From Mucilaginibacter sp. PPCGB 2223 (GTDB lineage Bacteria > Bacteroidota > Bacteroidia > Sphingobacteriales > Sphingobacteriaceae), in the NCBI RefSeq assembly GCF_001705515.1, contig NZ_MDJS01000003.1, forward strand, positions 1 to 64,000: 64,000 nt of DNA, given 5' to 3'. Positions 3,670 to 20,863 of the stretch are shown here, one piece after another. Both the position numbers and the translations under genes were made by a program. Numbering within the stretch: the stretch's first letter is position 1; each line of letters opens with the position of its first letter. The notes under the pieces were generated by a model. The model saw only the letters and a list, made by a program, of their open reading frames with translations, was not told the DNA's origin and did not search any database.

Positions 3670-4197
3670 ATGAAGCATATAACCGATATACCACGTACAG
3701 CCATAGAAGTATTCAATATGCTTCCGGAAGGAACGCGTTGCGAGGTTATTGATAATACACTGTACATGTCGCCATCGCCAACCACTAACCACCAGGATAC
3801 ACTTGGTGACATTTTTTATAAGATCAAGCAACATCTTATTCATAATCAATCAGGGAAAGTTTTTATAGCTCCGCTGGATGTTTACCTGGATAATGAGCTT
3901 GACGTGGTTCAGCCGGATTTGATTTTCATTAAAGCCCTGCATCAGAATCTAATACAACAAAAGGGCATTATTGGCTCACCGGACATGATTATTGAGATAC
4001 TATCTTCAAATATGGCTTATGACATGACGAAAAAATTTGAGTTATATCAACGGAATCTTATTCCAGAGTATATCATTATTAATCCTGACACAAAAGAAGT
4101 ATTGCATTATTTAATTAGTAGTGGCAAATACGAACAAGTTCCATCTGAAAAGGCGAAGCTGGATTTAAAGATCCTGGATTTGCAAATTACTTTTTAA
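3670..4197 (+). CDS. Uma2 family (DUF820) PD-(D/E)XK-fold protein
   Basis: 175 residues from ATG 3670 (a TTG at 3664 is less likely). It carries the Uma2 pattern: RCEVIDNTLYMSPSPT near the N-terminus, VQPDLIFI (catalytic-type Asp) near 80, and SPDMIIEILS near 107, matching the PD-(D/E)XK nuclease-fold core of this family. Uma2 proteins are abundant in Bacteroidota and Cyanobacteria; nuclease activity is predicted but their role is unknown. Single gene, convergent with dnaA and separated from it by a strong hairpin. Confidence 0.85.
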   Translation: MKHITDIPRTAIEVFNMLPEGTRCEVIDNTLYMSPSPTTNHQDTLGDIFYKIKQHLIHNQSGKVFIAPLDVYLDNELDVVQPDLIFIKALHQNLIQQKGIIGSPDMIIEILSSNMAYDMTKKFELYQRNLIPEYIIINPDTKEVLHYLISSGKYEQVPSEKAKLDLKILDLQITF

Positions 4198-4210
4198 GAC
4201 TGGTTCATTA

Positions 4211-4256
4211 AAACTAAAGGGCCCTTGCCTCGAATGAGACAGGGGCCCTTTAGTTT
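4211..4256. terminator. Bidirectional terminator between uma2 and dnaA
   Basis: A perfect 14-bp stem: AAACTAAAGGGCCC (4211-4224) pairs with GGGCCCTTTAGTTT (4243-4256), with an 18-base loop. It sits between two convergent genes and can end both transcripts. Confidence 0.88.
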
Positions 4257-4272
4257 ATAGCGGTAACGTCAA

Positions 4273-5700
4273 TTACGACATTTTTAATTTTTTCTGGATA
4301 TCGGCAACATAGCCTTTAAATTTCTTATCGGTATCGATCAGGTCTTCTACAGTCTGGCAGGCGTAGATCACGGTGGAGTGATCGCGGCCGCCGAAGAAAC
4401 TGCCTATCGATTTTAATGAGCTTTTGGTGTGTGCTTTTGCAAGGTACATCGATATCTGTCGGGCCTGTACAATTTCGCGTTTGCGGGTCTGCGATTTTAC
4501 CATCTCAATAGGAACCTCAAAATATTCGCAAACCAGGCTTTGGATATACTCCATCGAAATCTCCTTAGTAGAGTTTTTGATGAAGTTCTTCAGCATCTGC
4601 TTGGCCAGGTTCAGGTCGATTTCTTTACGATTAAGCGTTGATTGAGCCAATAAGGACACCATCGCACCTTCCAGCTCACGAACGTTATTGTCGATATTGT
4701 GGGCAACGTATTCAACTACCTCGTTTGGCAGTTCGATACCGTCCTGATAAATCTTGGTTTTGAGGATGGCCATGCGGGTTTCCAGGTCCGGCACCTGCAG
4801 ATCGGCCGAAAGGCCCCATTTAAAACGTGATAATAAACGCTCTTCCAAACCCGCCAGATCCTTCGGTGCCTTATCTGAGGTAATGATCAGTTGCTTGCCC
4901 GATTGATGCAGATGATTGAATATATGGAAAAAGAAATCCTGTGTTTTTTCTTTACCGGCAAAGTTGTGCACGTCGTCCATAATCAGCACGTCGATGGCCT
5001 GGTAAAAATTCACAAAGTCGTTAATGTTATTATGCTTTAAAGCGTCGACAAACTGCTGGGTGAATTTTTCGCACGATACATACAATACCAGCTTATCGGG
5101 CAGGGTGCGTTTAATTTCGTTGCCGATGGCCTGAGCCAGGTGGGTTTTACCTAAACCTACCCCGCCATAGATCATTAAAGGGTTAAACGATGTGCCCCCG
5201 GGTTTAGCTGCCACGGCATAACCGGCCGAACGGGCCAGACGGTTGCAATCGCCCTCGATAAAACTATCGAAGGTATAATTACGGTTGAGTTGCGGGTCAA
5301 CCTGCAGTTTCTTCAGGCCCGGTATTACAAATGGGTTCTTGATATCCTTGTTGATAGAAATAGGGACAGGCATTGATTGATTTTTACCTTCGGCCCCATT
5401 TCCGTTAGATGGCATATTGGTGGTATATGGCTTAGCCGAAGATGATTGCTCAACAACGATATTGTATTCCAGCCTTCCGTCTTCGCCCAACTGCTTTTTG
5501 ATGGTTTTACGTAATAAACCTACGTAATGCTCTTCGAGCCATTCGAAAAAGAACAAACTTGGCACTTGTATGGTAAGCACGCTTCCTTCAAGACGCAAGG
5601 CTTTTATAGGCTCGAACCAGGTTTTAAAACTTTGGGCCGGGATGTTGTCCTTGATGATCTGCAAGCAGCTATTCCAAACATTTGTACAAGTTTTTTCCAT
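4273..5700 (-). CDS. dnaA: Chromosomal replication initiator DnaA
   Basis: 475 residues with the full DnaA layout: domain I (about 1-85), a low-complexity linker (about 90-125), the AAA+ domain with Walker A GGVGLGKTHLA and Walker B VLIMDDVHNF, and the C-terminal domain IV helix-turn-helix with the DnaA-box-binding signature GGRDHSTVIYA. It binds DnaA boxes and melts the origin. dnaN is not adjacent; the next gene on this strand is an acyl-CoA mutase, so the gene stands alone between the terminator and a 500-base AT-rich upstream region. Confidence 0.98.
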   Translation of the reverse strand: MEKTCTNVWNSCLQIIKDNIPAQSFKTWFEPIKALRLEGSVLTIQVPSLFFFEWLEEHYVGLLRKTIKKQLGEDGRLEYNIVVEQSSSAKPYTTNMPSNGNGAEGKNQSMPVPISINKDIKNPFVIPGLKKLQVDPQLNRNYTFDSFIEGDCNRLARSAGYAVAAKPGGTSFNPLMIYGGVGLGKTHLAQAIGNEIKRTLPDKLVLYVSCEKFTQQFVDALKHNNINDFVNFYQAIDVLIMDDVHNFAGKEKTQDFFFHIFNHLHQSGKQLIITSDKAPKDLAGLEERLLSRFKWGLSADLQVPDLETRMAILKTKIYQDGIELPNEVVEYVAHNIDNNVRELEGAMVSLLAQSTLNRKEIDLNLAKQMLKNFIKNSTKEISMEYIQSLVCEYFEVPIEMVKSQTRKREIVQARQISMYLAKAHTKSSLKSIGSFFGGRDHSTVIYACQTVEDLIDTDKKFKGYVADIQKKLKMS

Positions 5701-6197
5701 TAGTAGTATTATAATTTATTGATTTACAAACTCCAGCACAAGCTTTCACTTAACCGGTTTCAGAACATCGAATATTGAAAAAATAACCTGATAAAAAAAT
5801 TAAATTTTCACTTTTCGCCGTTCAATTTTTTAACATTCTCGCTGGCACATTGTTAGTTTATTTCTCACTTAAAAATGTAATTATTAATTAATTATAAGCG
5901 CAAAACTAAAAAGGGCGTACCTATCAATCCCCAACTATTGTATGCCTATTTTTGCTATCAGGCTATACCCTAATTGAGACAATTTAAATCCCCAAAAAGT
6001 TAGTTAATTATTGGCTCCCACTCCACAGTTTATCAACACTTCTCTTTATGATAAACTATCCTTCAAATTGTATTGCTCCCTTAAAAATTAAAGCTAACAA
6101 AAATATTACATCGCAGCCAAAGTTTATAAGTTTTTTTCAACTTTTTGCTCTTGACTGTGTGTTAGCAAGATACGTTATCAACAACAACGATTAGGGC
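5701..6197. other. AT-rich region upstream of dnaA with DnaA-box-like sites
   Basis: About 500 bases without a gene. Two same-orientation TTATCAACA nonamers (6030-6038, 6175-6183) differ by one base from the DnaA box TTATCCACA. A candidate dnaA promoter -7 element, TAGTTTTG on the minus strand (5902-5909), lies about 200 bases upstream of the start codon. The region could be dnaA autoregulation or part of an origin; only two imperfect boxes make an origin call weak. Confidence 0.35.
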
Positions 6198-7748
6198 TTA
6201 ATGTTCGCCAAAAACATGGCGCATGGTATCGGCAATTTCGCCGAGTGTAGCATAGTTTTCCACAGCGTTTAAAATATACGGCATCAAATTTTCTTCGCTG
6301 CGGGTTGCTTCTTTAAGCTGTTGTAAAGCCAGGTCAACCGCCTGGTTGTCGCGCTCGGCTTTCAATTTTTGTAATTTGGCAGTTTGCTGCAGGCGAATGG
6401 AATCATCTACCCTGAAAACCTCGACAGATTGCTCCTGCTCCTGCACAAACTGGTTTACACCTACCAAAACCTGTTCGCCGCTCTCAATCTCCAACTGGTG
6501 CCGATAGGCAGATTTGGCAATTTCCTGCTGGATATAATCTTCCTCAATGGCTTTCACTGAGCCGCCCATTGCATCTATCTGATCAATATACAACTGTGCA
6601 GCGGCTTCCAGTTCATCCGTTAACGACTCGATAAAGTACGAACCGGCCAGCGGGTCGACCGTAGCGGTAACACCGCTTTCAAAAGCGATAATCTGCTGGG
6701 TACGCAAAGCGATCTTTGCAGCGGCCTCGGTAGGCAATGATAAAGCCTCATCATAACCGTTGGTATGGAGCGATTGCGTACCGCCTAATACCGCAGCCAT
6801 TGCCTGGTTGGCTACGCGTACAATATTGTTCATAGGCTGTTGCGCCGTCAGCGTCGATCCACCGGTTTGGGTATGGAAGCGCAGTTTTTGCGCACCTGCA
6901 TCGGTAGCGCCCAATTCTTTGGTGATATGCGCCCACATCCGCCGGGCAGCGCGGAACTTACAGATCTCTTCGAAAAAATTATTATGGCAGTTAAAAAAGA
7001 ACGACAGCCGTTTGGCAAAGACGTTAATATCTAAACCTTTGTCCATTGCCGCTTTCAAATAGGCCTTGCCGTTGGCCAGCGTAAAGGCCAGTTCCTGTAC
7101 AGCTGTCGACCCTGCTTCGCGGATATGATAGCCTGATATGGATATGGTGTTCCATTTGGGAAGCTCTTTACTGCAATACTCAAACACATCGGTAATCAGC
7201 CGCATCGACTGGCGGGGCGGGTAAATATAAGTACCGCGCGCAGCGTATTCCTTTAAAATATCGTTTTGGATGGTTCCGGATATCAGCTTCAGATCAGCTC
7301 CCTGCTTTTTAGCCAAGGCAATGTACATGGCCAGCAGTATCGGGGCGGTGGCATTGATGGTCATAGAGGTGGTTACCTTTTCCAGCTCGATGCCATCGAA
7401 TAAAATTTCTATGTCTTTTAACGAGTCGATGGCTACACCAACCTTCCCTACCTCACCTTCGGCAAGTGCATGATCAGAATCATAACCTATTTGCGTAGGC
7501 AGATCGAAGGCTACCGATAAGCCCATAGTGCCCTGGCTCAATAAATAATGGTAGCGTTTGTTCGATTCTTCGGCAGTTGAGAAACCTGCATATTGCCGCA
7601 TCGTCCAAGGGCGCCCACGATACATGTCCTTCTGTATACCCCGTGTGTACGGAAACTCGCCGGGCAATTCGTTCATTGGCGAAGGTACCGAGGTATAAAC
7701 CTCTTTAATTTCGATTCCCGATGATGTGGTATACTTTTTTCCTGACAT
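6198..7748 (-). CDS. Methylmalonyl-CoA mutase family, large (catalytic) subunit
   Basis: 516 residues covering the TIM-barrel catalytic domain only. Family motifs are clear: [48 protein letters not shown] and [16 protein letters not shown]. The Tyr in RQYAGFS is what methylmalonyl-type mutases have, where isobutyryl-type enzymes have Phe (family knowledge). The C-terminal cobalamin-binding domain (DxHxxG...) is absent, so a separate small B12-binding subunit must be encoded elsewhere. Isomerises acyl-CoAs by radical chemistry, probably succinyl-CoA/methylmalonyl-CoA. Ten bases downstream of the membrane-anchored protein gene. Confidence 0.88.
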
Positions 7749-10106: not shown

Positions 10107-10844
10107 TTAAAGCAATGCCTTATTACAAAGGTAGCCGCCGGCTAACAGCCTTTGTACATAAGGCATTTCCAGCGACCGCACAAATGCGTCGGCATGGCGG
10201 GTGGCATGCATATCGCTCGAAATAAAATCAACCAGTTGGTTATCAACCAATTCTTCGGCACATAGTTTTGTCTCGCGGCCATAATAACCGGTTAGCGATA
10301 TGGTGTTCAACTGCAGCATACAGCCCCACTGTTTGAGGTTTTTATATTGGTCGAGCGTATAATAAGGGTACCTTTCGGGATGAGCCAAGATCGGTATATA
10401 GCCCATATCTTTTAATTTAATGATGGTCGGGATAAATACCGGCGGCGGGCTAACGAACGAAAACTCGAACAGGATGTAGTTCTTCCCCATGGGCAACAGT
10501 TCGTTCTTCTCAACCAGCTCCATAAAAACTTCATCGAAAAAGTACTCGGCCGAAGCTTCTACCGGGATATCGATCTGCTGTTCGGCCAGTTCGGCTTTTA
10601 AAACGGCTAAAGCACTTTTAATACTTTCGGGCGTGTTGCGGTAATAATCATTCATCACGTGCGGCGTGGCGATGATTTTTTTGATACCTGCCGACATCAT
10701 GGTTTTAATCAGCTCGATAGACTCCTGCGGATTTTGCGCGCCATCGTCAATACCCGGCAGCACATGCGAATGCATGTCGACCGCGATAGCTTCAAAATTT
10801 AGTTTTGGCTGTTCGTCTCTCCGTTTTTTAAAGAGCCCGAACAT
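10107..10844 (-). CDS. CpsB/CapC-type metal-dependent protein-tyrosine phosphatase
   Basis: 245 residues of the PHP-fold phosphatase family that dephosphorylates bacterial tyrosine kinases in capsule/EPS export. The metal ligands are visible: DMHSHVLPGIDDG, ATPH, EASAEYF, LAHPERYPYY and SSDMHA. It is the last gene of the nucleotide-sugar operon, one base after rfbB. The cognate tyrosine kinase (Wzc/CpsD type) is not in the window. Confidence 0.92.
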   Translation of the reverse strand: MFGLFKKRRDEQPKLNFEAIAVDMHSHVLPGIDDGAQNPQESIELIKTMMSAGIKKIIATPHVMNDYYRNTPESIKSALAVLKAELAEQQIDIPVEASAEYFFDEVFMELVEKNELLPMGKNYILFEFSFVSPPPVFIPTIIKLKDMGYIPILAHPERYPYYTLDQYKNLKQWGCMLQLNTISLTGYYGRETKLCAEELVDNQLVDFISSDMHATRHADAFVRSLEMPYVQRLLAGGYLCNKALL

Positions 10845-10845
10845 A

Positions 10846-11898
10846 TTAGCGGTTGGTGTATTGGCCTTCGTAGTATTGCTGATACTGGCCCGATGTTACG
10901 TGATCCAGCCATTCCTGGTTAGCCAGGTACCAGTCGACGGTTTTTTCGAGGCCCTGTTCAAAAGTGATGCTTGGTGTCCACCCTAACTCTTCTTTCAGCT
11001 TTGTGGCATCGATCGCATAACGCAAATCGTGCCCTGCCCTGTCGGTAACGAAGGTAATCAGTTTGGCAGATTCGCCTTCGGGGCGACCGAGTTTTTTATC
11101 CAGGATACTACACAGCAAACGGATCAGGTCGATATTCTTCCACTCGTTATGGCCGCCAATGTTGTACGTTGTACCCGATTTGGCTTTATGAAAGATCACA
11201 TCGATAGCGCGGGCATGGTCTTCAACCCACAACCAGTCGCGCACGTTTTCGCCTTTACCGTAAACCGGGATAGGTTTTGATTGCTTGATGTTATGAATAG
11301 AAAGCGGTATCAGTTTTTCGGGAAAATGGTATGAGCCATAGTTATTCGAGCAGTTGGAGATGACGGCGTTCAAGCCATAGGTATCCTGGTAAGCGCGCAC
11401 AAAATGGTCAGAACTTGCTTTTGATGCCGAATAGGGCGAATGCGGGTCGTAAGCGGTTTCTTCGGTAAACATGCCGGTTTCGCCCAGAGTACCGTATACC
11501 TCATCGGTTGATACATGGTAAAAACGGGTGTTTTCGTAATTACCTGCCCAGTATTTTTTGGCGGCGTTCAACAGGTTTACCGTGCCGATCACATTGGTCA
11601 TCACAAACTCCAAAGGGTTGGTGATCGATCTGTCCACATGCGATTCGGCAGCCAAATGAATAACAGCATCGGGTTTTTCGTTTTTGAAGAGCTCATCGAT
11701 AAAAGCTGCGTCGACAATATCGCCTTTAACAAATTTATAGTTAGAGTTATGTTCAATGTCGCGCAGGTTTTCCAGGTTACCAGCGTAAGTGAGTTTATCG
11801 AGGTTAACGATCTGATACCCGGGATAGGTTGTTACAAACCTGCGTACCACGTGCGAGCCAATAAAACCTGCCCCTCCTGTGATGATGATCTTCTTCAT
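10846..11898 (-). CDS. rfbB: dTDP-glucose 4,6-dehydratase
   Basis: 350 residues, an extended SDR: NAD-binding GGAGFIGSH at the N-terminus, the active-site Thr-Asp-Glu in HVSTDEVYG, and catalytic Tyr/Lys in YSASKASSDH. Converts dTDP-glucose to dTDP-4-keto-6-deoxyglucose, the entry to dTDP-rhamnose and related sugars. rfbA, rfbC and rfbD are not adjacent, so the operon groups nucleotide-sugar enzymes from different routes. Confidence 0.95.
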   Translation of the reverse strand: MKKIIITGGAGFIGSHVVRRFVTTYPGYQIVNLDKLTYAGNLENLRDIEHNSNYKFVKGDIVDAAFIDELFKNEKPDAVIHLAAESHVDRSITNPLEFVMTNVIGTVNLLNAAKKYWAGNYENTRFYHVSTDEVYGTLGETGMFTEETAYDPHSPYSASKASSDHFVRAYQDTYGLNAVISNCSNNYGSYHFPEKLIPLSIHNIKQSKPIPVYGKGENVRDWLWVEDHARAIDVIFHKAKSGTTYNIGGHNEWKNIDLIRLLCSILDKKLGRPEGESAKLITFVTDRAGHDLRYAIDATKLKEELGWTPSITFEQGLEKTVDWYLANQEWLDHVTSGQYQQYYEGQYTNR

Positions 11899-18646: not shown

Positions 18647-18835
18647 ATGTTGCAGGCAATGTATTGGTAATTAAAATGTCAGTTGGGTGTTAAATAGATT
18701 GACGGTTTGGTATTTTATTGGTTTTGTAATGTGTTAGTGAGAGTGATTGTGGTAATTGACTTTAAAGCGTATATAGTATCAGATGAATGAGTTGGTGAGC
18801 TTGGTTTTAATATAATTGTTAATTACAGAAGATTT

Positions 18836-18932
18836 GGGCGTTCCCTGCGGGCCGGGCTATCCGTTTATACTGCGCAGGCATTAGCCACGGCCCGCCCTAA
18901 ACCCCGGGCACGGCCGGTATCCACTTCTATCC
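18836..18932 (+). repeat. REP-like repeat, copy A (left part, split by IS110)
   Basis: Begins GGGCGTTCCCTGCGGGCC, contains GCATTAGCCACG and GGCCGGTATCC, and stops at TTCTATCC where the IS begins. The missing end, CTAACGC, is found at 20125-20131. Joined across the IS, the tail has the same length as copy C (34277). Copies B (29591) and C are intact. Confidence 0.85.
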
Positions 18933-18949
18933 ATTAGGTTTGTTTTAGA

Positions 18950-19118
18950 TTTGAAAGATATCGCAAGCCAGAGGTGAACCATGTTCTATCGTAGGTGTAG
19001 AGACCTAATTAGGGATTCGGTCCTCTGACTCTGCTATGCTCAGGGCTTTAATAGAAATTCAGGCATCAGGGCCTATTATCATGGATATAAGCGATAAGCA
19101 TAACTGCGATACTCTCTA
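18950..19118 (+). ncRNA. IS110 bridge RNA
   Basis: Noncoding stretch before the transposase. A closing stem pairs TATCGCA (18959-18965) with TGCGATA (19105-19111). Inside, CAGAGG (18969-18974) pairs with CCTCTG (19022-19027), closing a loop that contains TTCTATC (18984-18990), identical to the left target flank, and TTAGGGAT (19009-19016), the reverse complement of the right target ATCCCTAA. The second loop contains ATAGAAAT (19051-19058), identical to the right end of the IS (20115-20122), and ATGGAT (19081-19086), the reverse complement of ATCCAT at the left end. This is the target-loop/donor-loop layout described for IS621; the ends of the RNA are approximate. Confidence 0.85.
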
Positions 19119-19138
19119 ACAACTCAAAATTAAACATT

Positions 19139-20107
19139 ATGAAGCAGTTTTCTTTTTTTACAGGTATCGATGTGTCTAAACTATGGCTGGATATTGCAGT
19201 TCTAAGCGCTACCGATGGTATCGTTTATCAGGCCAAGATCAATAATAACGCAAAAGATATCCGAATCTTTCTCAGAGAACTTAAAAAGCTCTTGAAAACC
19301 GAAATAACCCAACATCTTTTCTGCATGGAACATACCGGTAAATATGGCAACGCTTTTCTTGCTGTAGCTGCAGTTGCCGGTGCGGAAGTTTGGGTAGAAC
19401 TACCTCTCCAGATCAAGAGAAGCCAGGGACTGGTCAGAGGTAAGACAGACCAGTGGGACGCAGTTCGCATTGCCAAATATGCACTCCGGTTTGCTGATAA
19501 AGCAGTCTTTTGGAAACCTGCCGATCAAACCATTCTGGACATCAAGGAGCTTCAGGTAAAAAGGAACCGGCTGGTCAAAGCACATTCACAACTTGTTCAG
19601 GAGAACAAGAACGATCCTTTGTTCAAAAAGCCTTTACTGGCCCTGAAACAAGCCATTGAAGCTATTGAACTAAAGATGGAACAGCAACTTGAACAAAATG
19701 AAGATGCCTGCCATCAATACAAATTACTAAAAACAGTACCAGGCATCGGTAAACAAACAGCGCTGGCATTGATCGCCGTTACCAATGGCTTTACCAGGTT
19801 AACCGAGAGCAGAAAGCTAAGCTGTTATGCCGGTCTTGCTCCATTTCCTTATAGTTCGGGAAGCTCTGTTAAAGGCAGAACCAAAGTCTCTAAAATGGGA
19901 GATATGAAGCTCAAGGTATTGCTAAACCTTTCAGCATGGAACGCTATTCGTTCCATCAGTGCTTTTAAAGATTATTTCAAAAGAAAGGTCGGCGAGGGTA
20001 AACATAAAATGTCCGTTATCAATGCTATTCGAAACAAACTGCTTGCACTGGCTTTAGCTGTCATTAAAAGAAACAGTCCTTTTGAAAAAAACTACACTTT
20101 TTCTTGA
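19139..20107 (+). CDS. IS110 family transposase (RNA-guided recombinase)
   Basis: 322 residues. The N-terminal RuvC-like DEDD domain has D11 (GIDVSK), E64 (CMEHTGKY), D104 and D107 (KTDQWDA), nearly the spacing known from IS621. A coiled helical linker (about 135-190) leads to the C-terminal Tnp domain with TVPGIGKQTALAL, LSCYAGLAP and the candidate nucleophile Ser239/240 in PYSSGSS. Forms a tetramer that joins donor and target using the bridge RNA. The frame is intact and all acidic residues are kept, so it is probably functional. Confidence 0.96.
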   Translation: MKQFSFFTGIDVSKLWLDIAVLSATDGIVYQAKINNNAKDIRIFLRELKKLLKTEITQHLFCMEHTGKYGNAFLAVAAVAGAEVWVELPLQIKRSQGLVRGKTDQWDAVRIAKYALRFADKAVFWKPADQTILDIKELQVKRNRLVKAHSQLVQENKNDPLFKKPLLALKQAIEAIELKMEQQLEQNEDACHQYKLLKTVPGIGKQTALALIAVTNGFTRLTESRKLSCYAGLAPFPYSSGSSVKGRTKVSKMGDMKLKVLLNLSAWNAIRSISAFKDYFKRKVGEGKHKMSVINAIRNKLLALALAVIKRNSPFEKNYTFS

Positions 20108-20185
20108 TTATGCCATAGAAATCCCTAACGCCTCCTTCACACTCGTCCAAACTTTCGGACTTCCTGACTTTTCCGGCTTCCGGGA

Positions 20186-20863
20186 CTACTCTCCTTTTAT
20201 TTTCCACAACAGCCACCAGGGCGTACCGGGTGAATCGTGGTGTTCGTAGTGATAGCCGAAAAAATAACAACTTAAAAAGGCTGCCAGGTGGTTTTTGTGC
20301 TGACTACCCGATTGGTGTTGATTGCTATGCTCGCCCTTATGCGGTAAATAAGTGCCGAAATAAAACAGCTGTACCGTGCTTAACAGTGACGGTACCACCC
20401 AAAACAGGATAAGGTTTAGCTGTGGTATCCATATCTTCAAAACATTGAACAGGATCGCCATCAAAACTACCTGCCAGATTGCTAAATAATTGCGGATAAA
20501 GCTGATATACCAGGTTACGAAACCGCCCTGATGATAGTCGGGATCATCACCGGTATGCACATGTTTATGGTGCCGGTGGTGTTTTTTATAAAGCTTCGGG
20601 TACCAAAATGCTGCGTAAAGAAAGGTAACACTATAGCCAATACCGTTGTTGATCGTTCTATTGGAGGATATAGTGCCGTGCATAGCATCGTGAGCCGTGA
20701 TGAACAAACCCGTATACAAGTGCATCTGCAACAGCACAAAAAAGTACAGCAATGGATTTGTAAAATTTACCTGCCAGTGCATTAACAGGATTGTTGAGGT
20801 TAACCAGCCCACGAGAATAATCAAAGCGATAACTATACCGGTGTTTGAGGCTGGTCTGTGCAT
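20186..20863 (-). CDS. crtW: Beta-carotene ketolase, CrtW type
   Basis: 225 residues from ATG 20863 (MHRPASNT), 23 bases after ispH. A membrane fatty-acid-hydroxylase-like di-iron protein: TAHDAMHG, HHRHHKHVHTGDDPDYH, FGTYLPHKG and HYEHHDSPGTPWW match CrtW rather than general desaturases. Adds 4-keto groups to beta-ionone rings, giving canthaxanthin- or flexixanthin-type pigments. Last gene of the carotenoid run; upstream extensions to 20929 overlap ispH and are unlikely. Confidence 0.88.
   Translation of the reverse strand: MHRPASNTGIVIALIILVGWLTSTILLMHWQVNFTNPLLYFFVLLQMHLYTGLFITAHDAMHGTISSNRTINNGIGYSVTFLYAAFWYPKLYKKHHRHHKHVHTGDDPDYHQGGFVTWYISFIRNYLAIWQVVLMAILFNVLKIWIPQLNLILFWVVPSLLSTVQLFYFGTYLPHKGEHSNQHQSGSQHKNHLAAFLSCYFFGYHYEHHDSPGTPWWLLWKIKGE

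Follow-up and report, generated by a model that had tools for sequence, protein, structure and literature searches.

A complete IS110-group insertion sequence in Mucilaginibacter with a predicted bridge RNA that matches its target repeat and its own ends

Mucilaginibacter sp. PPCGB 2223 carries what is very probably a complete insertion sequence of the IS110 group, in which a bridge RNA would guide recombination between target and donor at a TC core once the element has circularised. The evidence comprises the anatomy of the sequence, the fit of guides to targets and donors together with its covariation among relatives, an RNA structure obtained by comparison, intact catalytic residues, and the presence of two copies in the expected site. 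The element lies within a 64,000-nucleotide stretch of DNA (contig NZ_MDJS01000003.1), here called the window, and its features are collected in Table 1. It is a further bridge-RNA element of the IS110 group, whose mechanism has previously been described for a related element. An earlier note on the window had proposed a bridge RNA in an insertion sequence of the Bacteroidota, and the protein family, a covariance model built from relatives, permutation tests, covariation, the second copy and the empty target sites all agree with that proposal.

Table 1. Features of the IS110-group element and its surroundings (window coordinates)
Feature	Position	Strand	Details
IS110 insertion sequence	18932-20123	+	1192 bp, core TC counted once; second copy and relatives compared
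Left part of interrupted palindromic intergenic repeat	18836-18931	+	GGGCG...GGGCTATCC...TTAGCC...CTTCTATC
Left target (LT) TTCTATC	18925-18931	+	ends in core TC; identical to LTG
Predicted -7 box TAGGTTTG	18935-18942	+	Bacteroidota-type promoter, completed only in excised circle
Target-binding loop	18969-19027	+	stem CAGAGG/CCUCUG, apical hairpin AGGUGUAGAGACCU; folds, covariance model
Left target guide (LTG) TTCTATC	18984-18990	+	identical to LT, 18925-18931
Right target guide (RTG) TTAGGGAT	19009-19016	+	reverse complement of ATCCCTAA, 20121-20128
Donor-binding loop	19035-19102	+	stem UAUGCU/AGCAUA; folds, covariance model
Left donor guide (LDG) ATAGAAAT	19051-19058	+	identical to 20115-20122
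Right donor guide (RDG) ATGGAT	19081-19086	+	reverse complement of ATCCAT, 18929-18934
IS110 recombinase ORF, intact	19139-20107	+	322 aa; Pfam, NCBIfam, solved structures, residues
TTG (-33-like), right end of IS	20104-20106	+	20 nt upstream of -7 box once circular
Left donor (IS right end) ATAGAAATC	20115-20123	+	matches LDG
Core and right target TCCCTAACGC	20122-20131	+	junction recurs at other insertions in three species

The element, its target and its recombinase

When copies were compared to fix the ends, and relatives were set alongside, the core dinucleotide was placed at TC, at 18930-18931 and again at 20122-20123, and the limits of the element therefore follow as given in Table 1. 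The junctions described in the earlier note were broadly right, with the exact ends being shifted by the TC core; placement of the junction is ambiguous within the sequence ATCC. So delimited, the element has a non-coding left end of 207 bp upstream of the recombinase and a right end of 16 bp. A second copy is found in the same genome (C3:178493-179713), and the two are 100% identical over 1205 bp (18927 to 20131) and divergent outside that interval. Both have identical junctions, so that insertion around the short core is sequence-specific.

The target is the end of an interrupted palindromic repeat. The family comprises the window copy (18836-18931 plus 20124-20131) and the loci L007-L027, and its members end in CTATCCCTAACGC, which occurs unoccupied at 21 exact sites in the genome, against none for the reversed control; at 20 of these 21 sites the same repeat body can be recognised upstream by eye, in whole or in part. 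Joining TTCTATC to CCTAACGC restores the unoccupied repeat end, the target sequence of the window element in its rebuilt form being TTCTATCCCTAACGC. The second copy lies inside another such repeat, where its left target, TGCTATC, has one mismatch to the LTG. The claim that the choice of target can be read from the guide was thus borne out, as the loop spells the repeat end, which is present at the exact empty sites, and the second copy is in such a repeat. The window copy has a ferrochelatase-like gene on one side and a hydroxylase/ispH-like cluster on the other (both named by inspection), and no gene is disrupted by it; since the target is where a palindromic intergenic repeat ends, gene hits by insertion should be rare. 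IS110 elements that target palindromic repeats were already known (PMC11208160). The repeat superficially resembles Rfam Flavo-1 (RF01705) on the opposite strand, an identity that was rejected, the interrupted repeat scoring 17.9 bits against a gathering threshold of 42 and the model giving no match at E 0.5 to 18 empty repeats and the second copy.

The recombinase contains both PF01548 (DEDD_Tnp_IS110) and PF02371 (Transposase_20) above the Pfam cut-offs, and scores 167 bits against the NCBIfam model NF033542 ('IS110 family RNA-guided transposase'; cut-off 140); its score of 27.8 bits against TIGR_Tas_endo falls below the cut-off of 100. The catalytic residues D11, E64, D104, D107 and S240 are all present and align with D11, E60, D102, D105 and S241 of IS621 (PMC11208158). 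By sequence, the closest solved protein is the ISCro4 transposase (PDB 9t56; E 2.7e-29), and the IS621 protein is only distantly similar (phmmer E 4e-26).

One might ask whether the window copy is an inactive relic, retaining bridge-RNA anatomy but no longer transposing. There are just two copies despite 21 exact empty targets, and Pedobacter kyungheensis and a second species of the genus both contain truncated remnants of the same element. Nevertheless, the ORF is intact with all its catalytic residues, the four guides are intact as well, and the identity of the two copies over 1205 bp points to recent movement, so that we regard loss of activity as unlikely, although it is the most serious of the alternatives considered here.

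Loop structure and guide matches

On folding, the RNA forms two arms 5' of the recombinase, the target loop preceding the donor loop. As a whole, the RNA folds no more stably than shuffled sequences (z ~ 0), thermodynamic z-scores being uninformative for this RNA, and a comparison with Rfam gave no credible family match to the bridge RNA in 18700-20400. A covariance model built only from 15 relatives (~40% identity), with the window element excluded, matches the window at 18958-19098 over its full length (30.5 bits, E 2.5e-4); this is the best match in the 64 kb, the next best having an E value of 2.3. The target loop is kept in the 15 relatives, with compensatory changes at nine pairs, six in the outer stem and three in the apical hairpin. 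Folding and covariance modelling were the checks suggested in the earlier note, and both recovered the expected structure.

Within these arms, all four guide strings reported in the earlier note were verified in place. Their strand pattern is that of IS621, the 5' guide being sense and the 3' guide antisense in both loops, with the core included; the LDG pairs with the second core base only by way of a U-G wobble.

Guide variation cannot be shown within this genome, because it holds only two copies in near-identical targets. A search of the genome contigs for close relatives of the window element yielded only Pedobacter kyungheensis, whose element shares 82% protein identity with the window recombinase. 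Its left flank, CTTACAATC, is accompanied by the LTG ACTGCAATC, whereas the window has ACTTCTATC with TGTTCTATC; the RTG and right flank are the same as in the window, so that the left guide and left target have changed together. No exact unoccupied CWATCCCTAACGC site was found in P. kyungheensis. The right junction, AAATC followed by CCTAACGC, recurs at three places in that species, one of them a truncated remnant; a further species of the genus retains it in a remnant of 27 nt (locus L004). An unchanged loop beside unrelated targets had been named in advance as evidence against a bridge RNA; what was found is an unchanged loop in the same repeat family for the second copy, and a changed loop with the changed target in P. 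kyungheensis.

Related elements from the genus and family (~31-42% protein identity), with ends set by comparing copies, extend this comparison. Among 17 elements, guides matched to their own targets gave a sum of 247, against a mean of 197.8 and a maximum of 228 when targets were swapped (0 of 100,000 permutations); for donors, in 11 elements, the corresponding values were 153, 132.5 and 151 (again 0 of 100,000). As some of the elements are interrelated and several have similar targets, these counts are not probabilities and overstate the significance somewhat. The RDG likewise tracks the left end, the window having CATTAG with ATGGA and relatives CTTTAG with AAGGA, CCTTAG with AAGGG, and CCTTTGG with AAAGG. 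Loop changes therefore do track target changes, as the earlier note had proposed to check, in that own targets and own donors fit better than swapped ones and the P. kyungheensis element covaries.

The matches are short, which would suit a recombinase that reads its target and ends as protein-DNA sites, the guide-like strings being leftovers or operator copies. This is very improbable, as the arrangement of sense and antisense guides in both loops is that of a bridge RNA, the stems show compensatory changes, and, among relatives with similar proteins, the targets are entirely different and the guides change with them.

The guide matches were also compared with chance expectation, the LTG, RTG, LDG and RDG being taken in that order, tied to the junctions and scored together. 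Their sum of 29 nt was reached once when this 171-nt RNA was shuffled 60,000 times with its dinucleotides preserved (mean 14.9); 3,113 stretches elsewhere in the window all fell short of it, the highest scoring 23. The matches are thus beyond chance, as had been claimed, but they are not the wholly independent set of four that the earlier note took them for, because ATCC is common to both junctions. That the matches are accidental, or a by-product of this common sequence, is hardly credible: most segments do contain ATC or ATCC and the junction is ambiguous within ATCC, yet the shuffles had the same freedom in these respects, and both swap tests and the independent covariance-model match speak against it.

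Proposed mechanism and known relatives

At the junction of right end and left end (RE-LE) formed by circularisation, a TTG would lie exactly 20 nt upstream of TAGGTTTG, an arrangement of sequence motifs that is absent from the integrated copy. It fits the Bacteroides promoter consensus of TTTG at -33 and TANNTTTGY at -7 (quoted in PMC8748976). Taken as circles, 15 of 17 elements have the same type of arrangement, the -7 box of some deviating at one position; as integrated copies, one of 17 has it. IS621 forms its promoter at the RE-LE circle junction (PMC11208160).

From the sequence we infer transcription, RNA-protein binding, promoter use and present-day activity for the window element. In the excised circle, the joining of the right end to the left end would complete the promoter, from which the left end would be transcribed into a bridge RNA of ~170 nt. 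This RNA would be bound by the recombinase; its first loop would pair with both target strands through the LTG and RTG and its second loop would pair with the donor junction through the LDG and RDG, leading to strand exchange at the TC core. The junction motif suggests that circularisation may switch on bridge RNA expression via a predicted Bacteroidota-type promoter.

The proposed system closely parallels IS621, an IS110-group element of E. coli (PMC11208160, PMC11208158). Both have a recombinase of the DEDD plus serine type, a bridge RNA in the left end with the target loop before the donor loop, sense LTG and LDG with antisense RTG and RDG, a circle-junction promoter (predicted in the case of the window), and insertion into palindromic intergenic repeats. 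They differ in the core, which is CT in IS621 and TC here, in the guides and target repeat, and in the promoter, which is of the sigma-70 type in IS621 and predicted to be of the Bacteroidota type in the window; these differences are ordinary variation within the family. ISCro4 (PDB 9t56) is a different element, likened to the window element by protein sequence alone. In the seekRNA systems of IS110 and IS1111 (PMC11187229), the IS110 type resembles the window element in that a non-coding region upstream of the transposase gives rise to an RNA with both target strands, whereas the IS1111 type has its RNA downstream and subterminal inverted repeats. TIGR-Tas (PMC12045711) shows a distant Nop-domain relation to the window recombinase, but it is no transposon and its 36-nt guides come in arrays, in contrast to the single two-loop RNA of the window element.

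Tandem loops at related recombinases

In the same genus, tandem hairpins resembling bridge loops flank several IS110-like recombinases for which no insertion sequence ends can be recognised. At the clearest such locus, L061 (L061:3910-6024; G063:C1, in the window's genus), twelve bridge-loop-like hairpins lie directly upstream of a single-copy recombinase that has no recognisable insertion sequence ends; within 3923-4900 they alternate as six A/B pairs, each having TC as the core of both guides, and the right guide TTAAGTGGA is common to all A units. In a descriptor scan, the surroundings of 30 loci yielded 72 loop units, compared with 20 when the flanks were shuffled, and the units cluster at this same locus (listed as L043 in the scan) and at L045, L052, L055, L056 and L057. 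These last five, from other species of the genus, have several similar hairpins beside apparently stationary recombinases. In the window's own genome (L060, C1), two oppositely oriented IS110-like recombinases (6101-7117, + strand; 10523-11530, - strand) are accompanied by one bridge-loop-like hairpin each (6026-6094 and 11566-11635) and enclose a patatin-like gene, near apparent phage tail-fibre genes. Tandem units also occur in IS110 elements whose left end has two target-loop units, namely L126 (G026), L128/L129 (G063) and L111/L112 (G480).

The targets of the array loops were sought in several places. Self-targeting was rejected, no composite target lying within 40 kb on either side; a search through parts of its genome did not turn up the predicted targets of the L061 array, exact CGTTCCACTTAA was absent from the genome of the array locus, and targets predicted from the two L060 loops occurred in the window's own genome at about chance level. 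Viruses gave 101 matches against 10 for a control pattern, a candidate explanation that was also set aside, as most of these are one conserved phage gene and so are no evidence for targeting.

We put at about even the chances that the window element belongs to a Sphingobacteriaceae lineage with modular bridge RNAs, expressed both as tandem target loops, as in L126, and as arrays at stationary recombinases, most clearly at L061. If so, the array loci would be multiplex RNA-guided recombinases rather than insertion sequences. They merit a study of their own, because the TIGR-Tas paper describes the IS110 bridge RNA as a single two-stem unit (PMC12045711).

For the Bacteroidota, the window element means that the target of an IS110 element can be legible from the raw sequence, and the 17 elements compared here offer a natural series of guide and target pairs with which guide rules could be tested. 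The element itself is a candidate RNA-guided recombinase native to the Bacteroidota.
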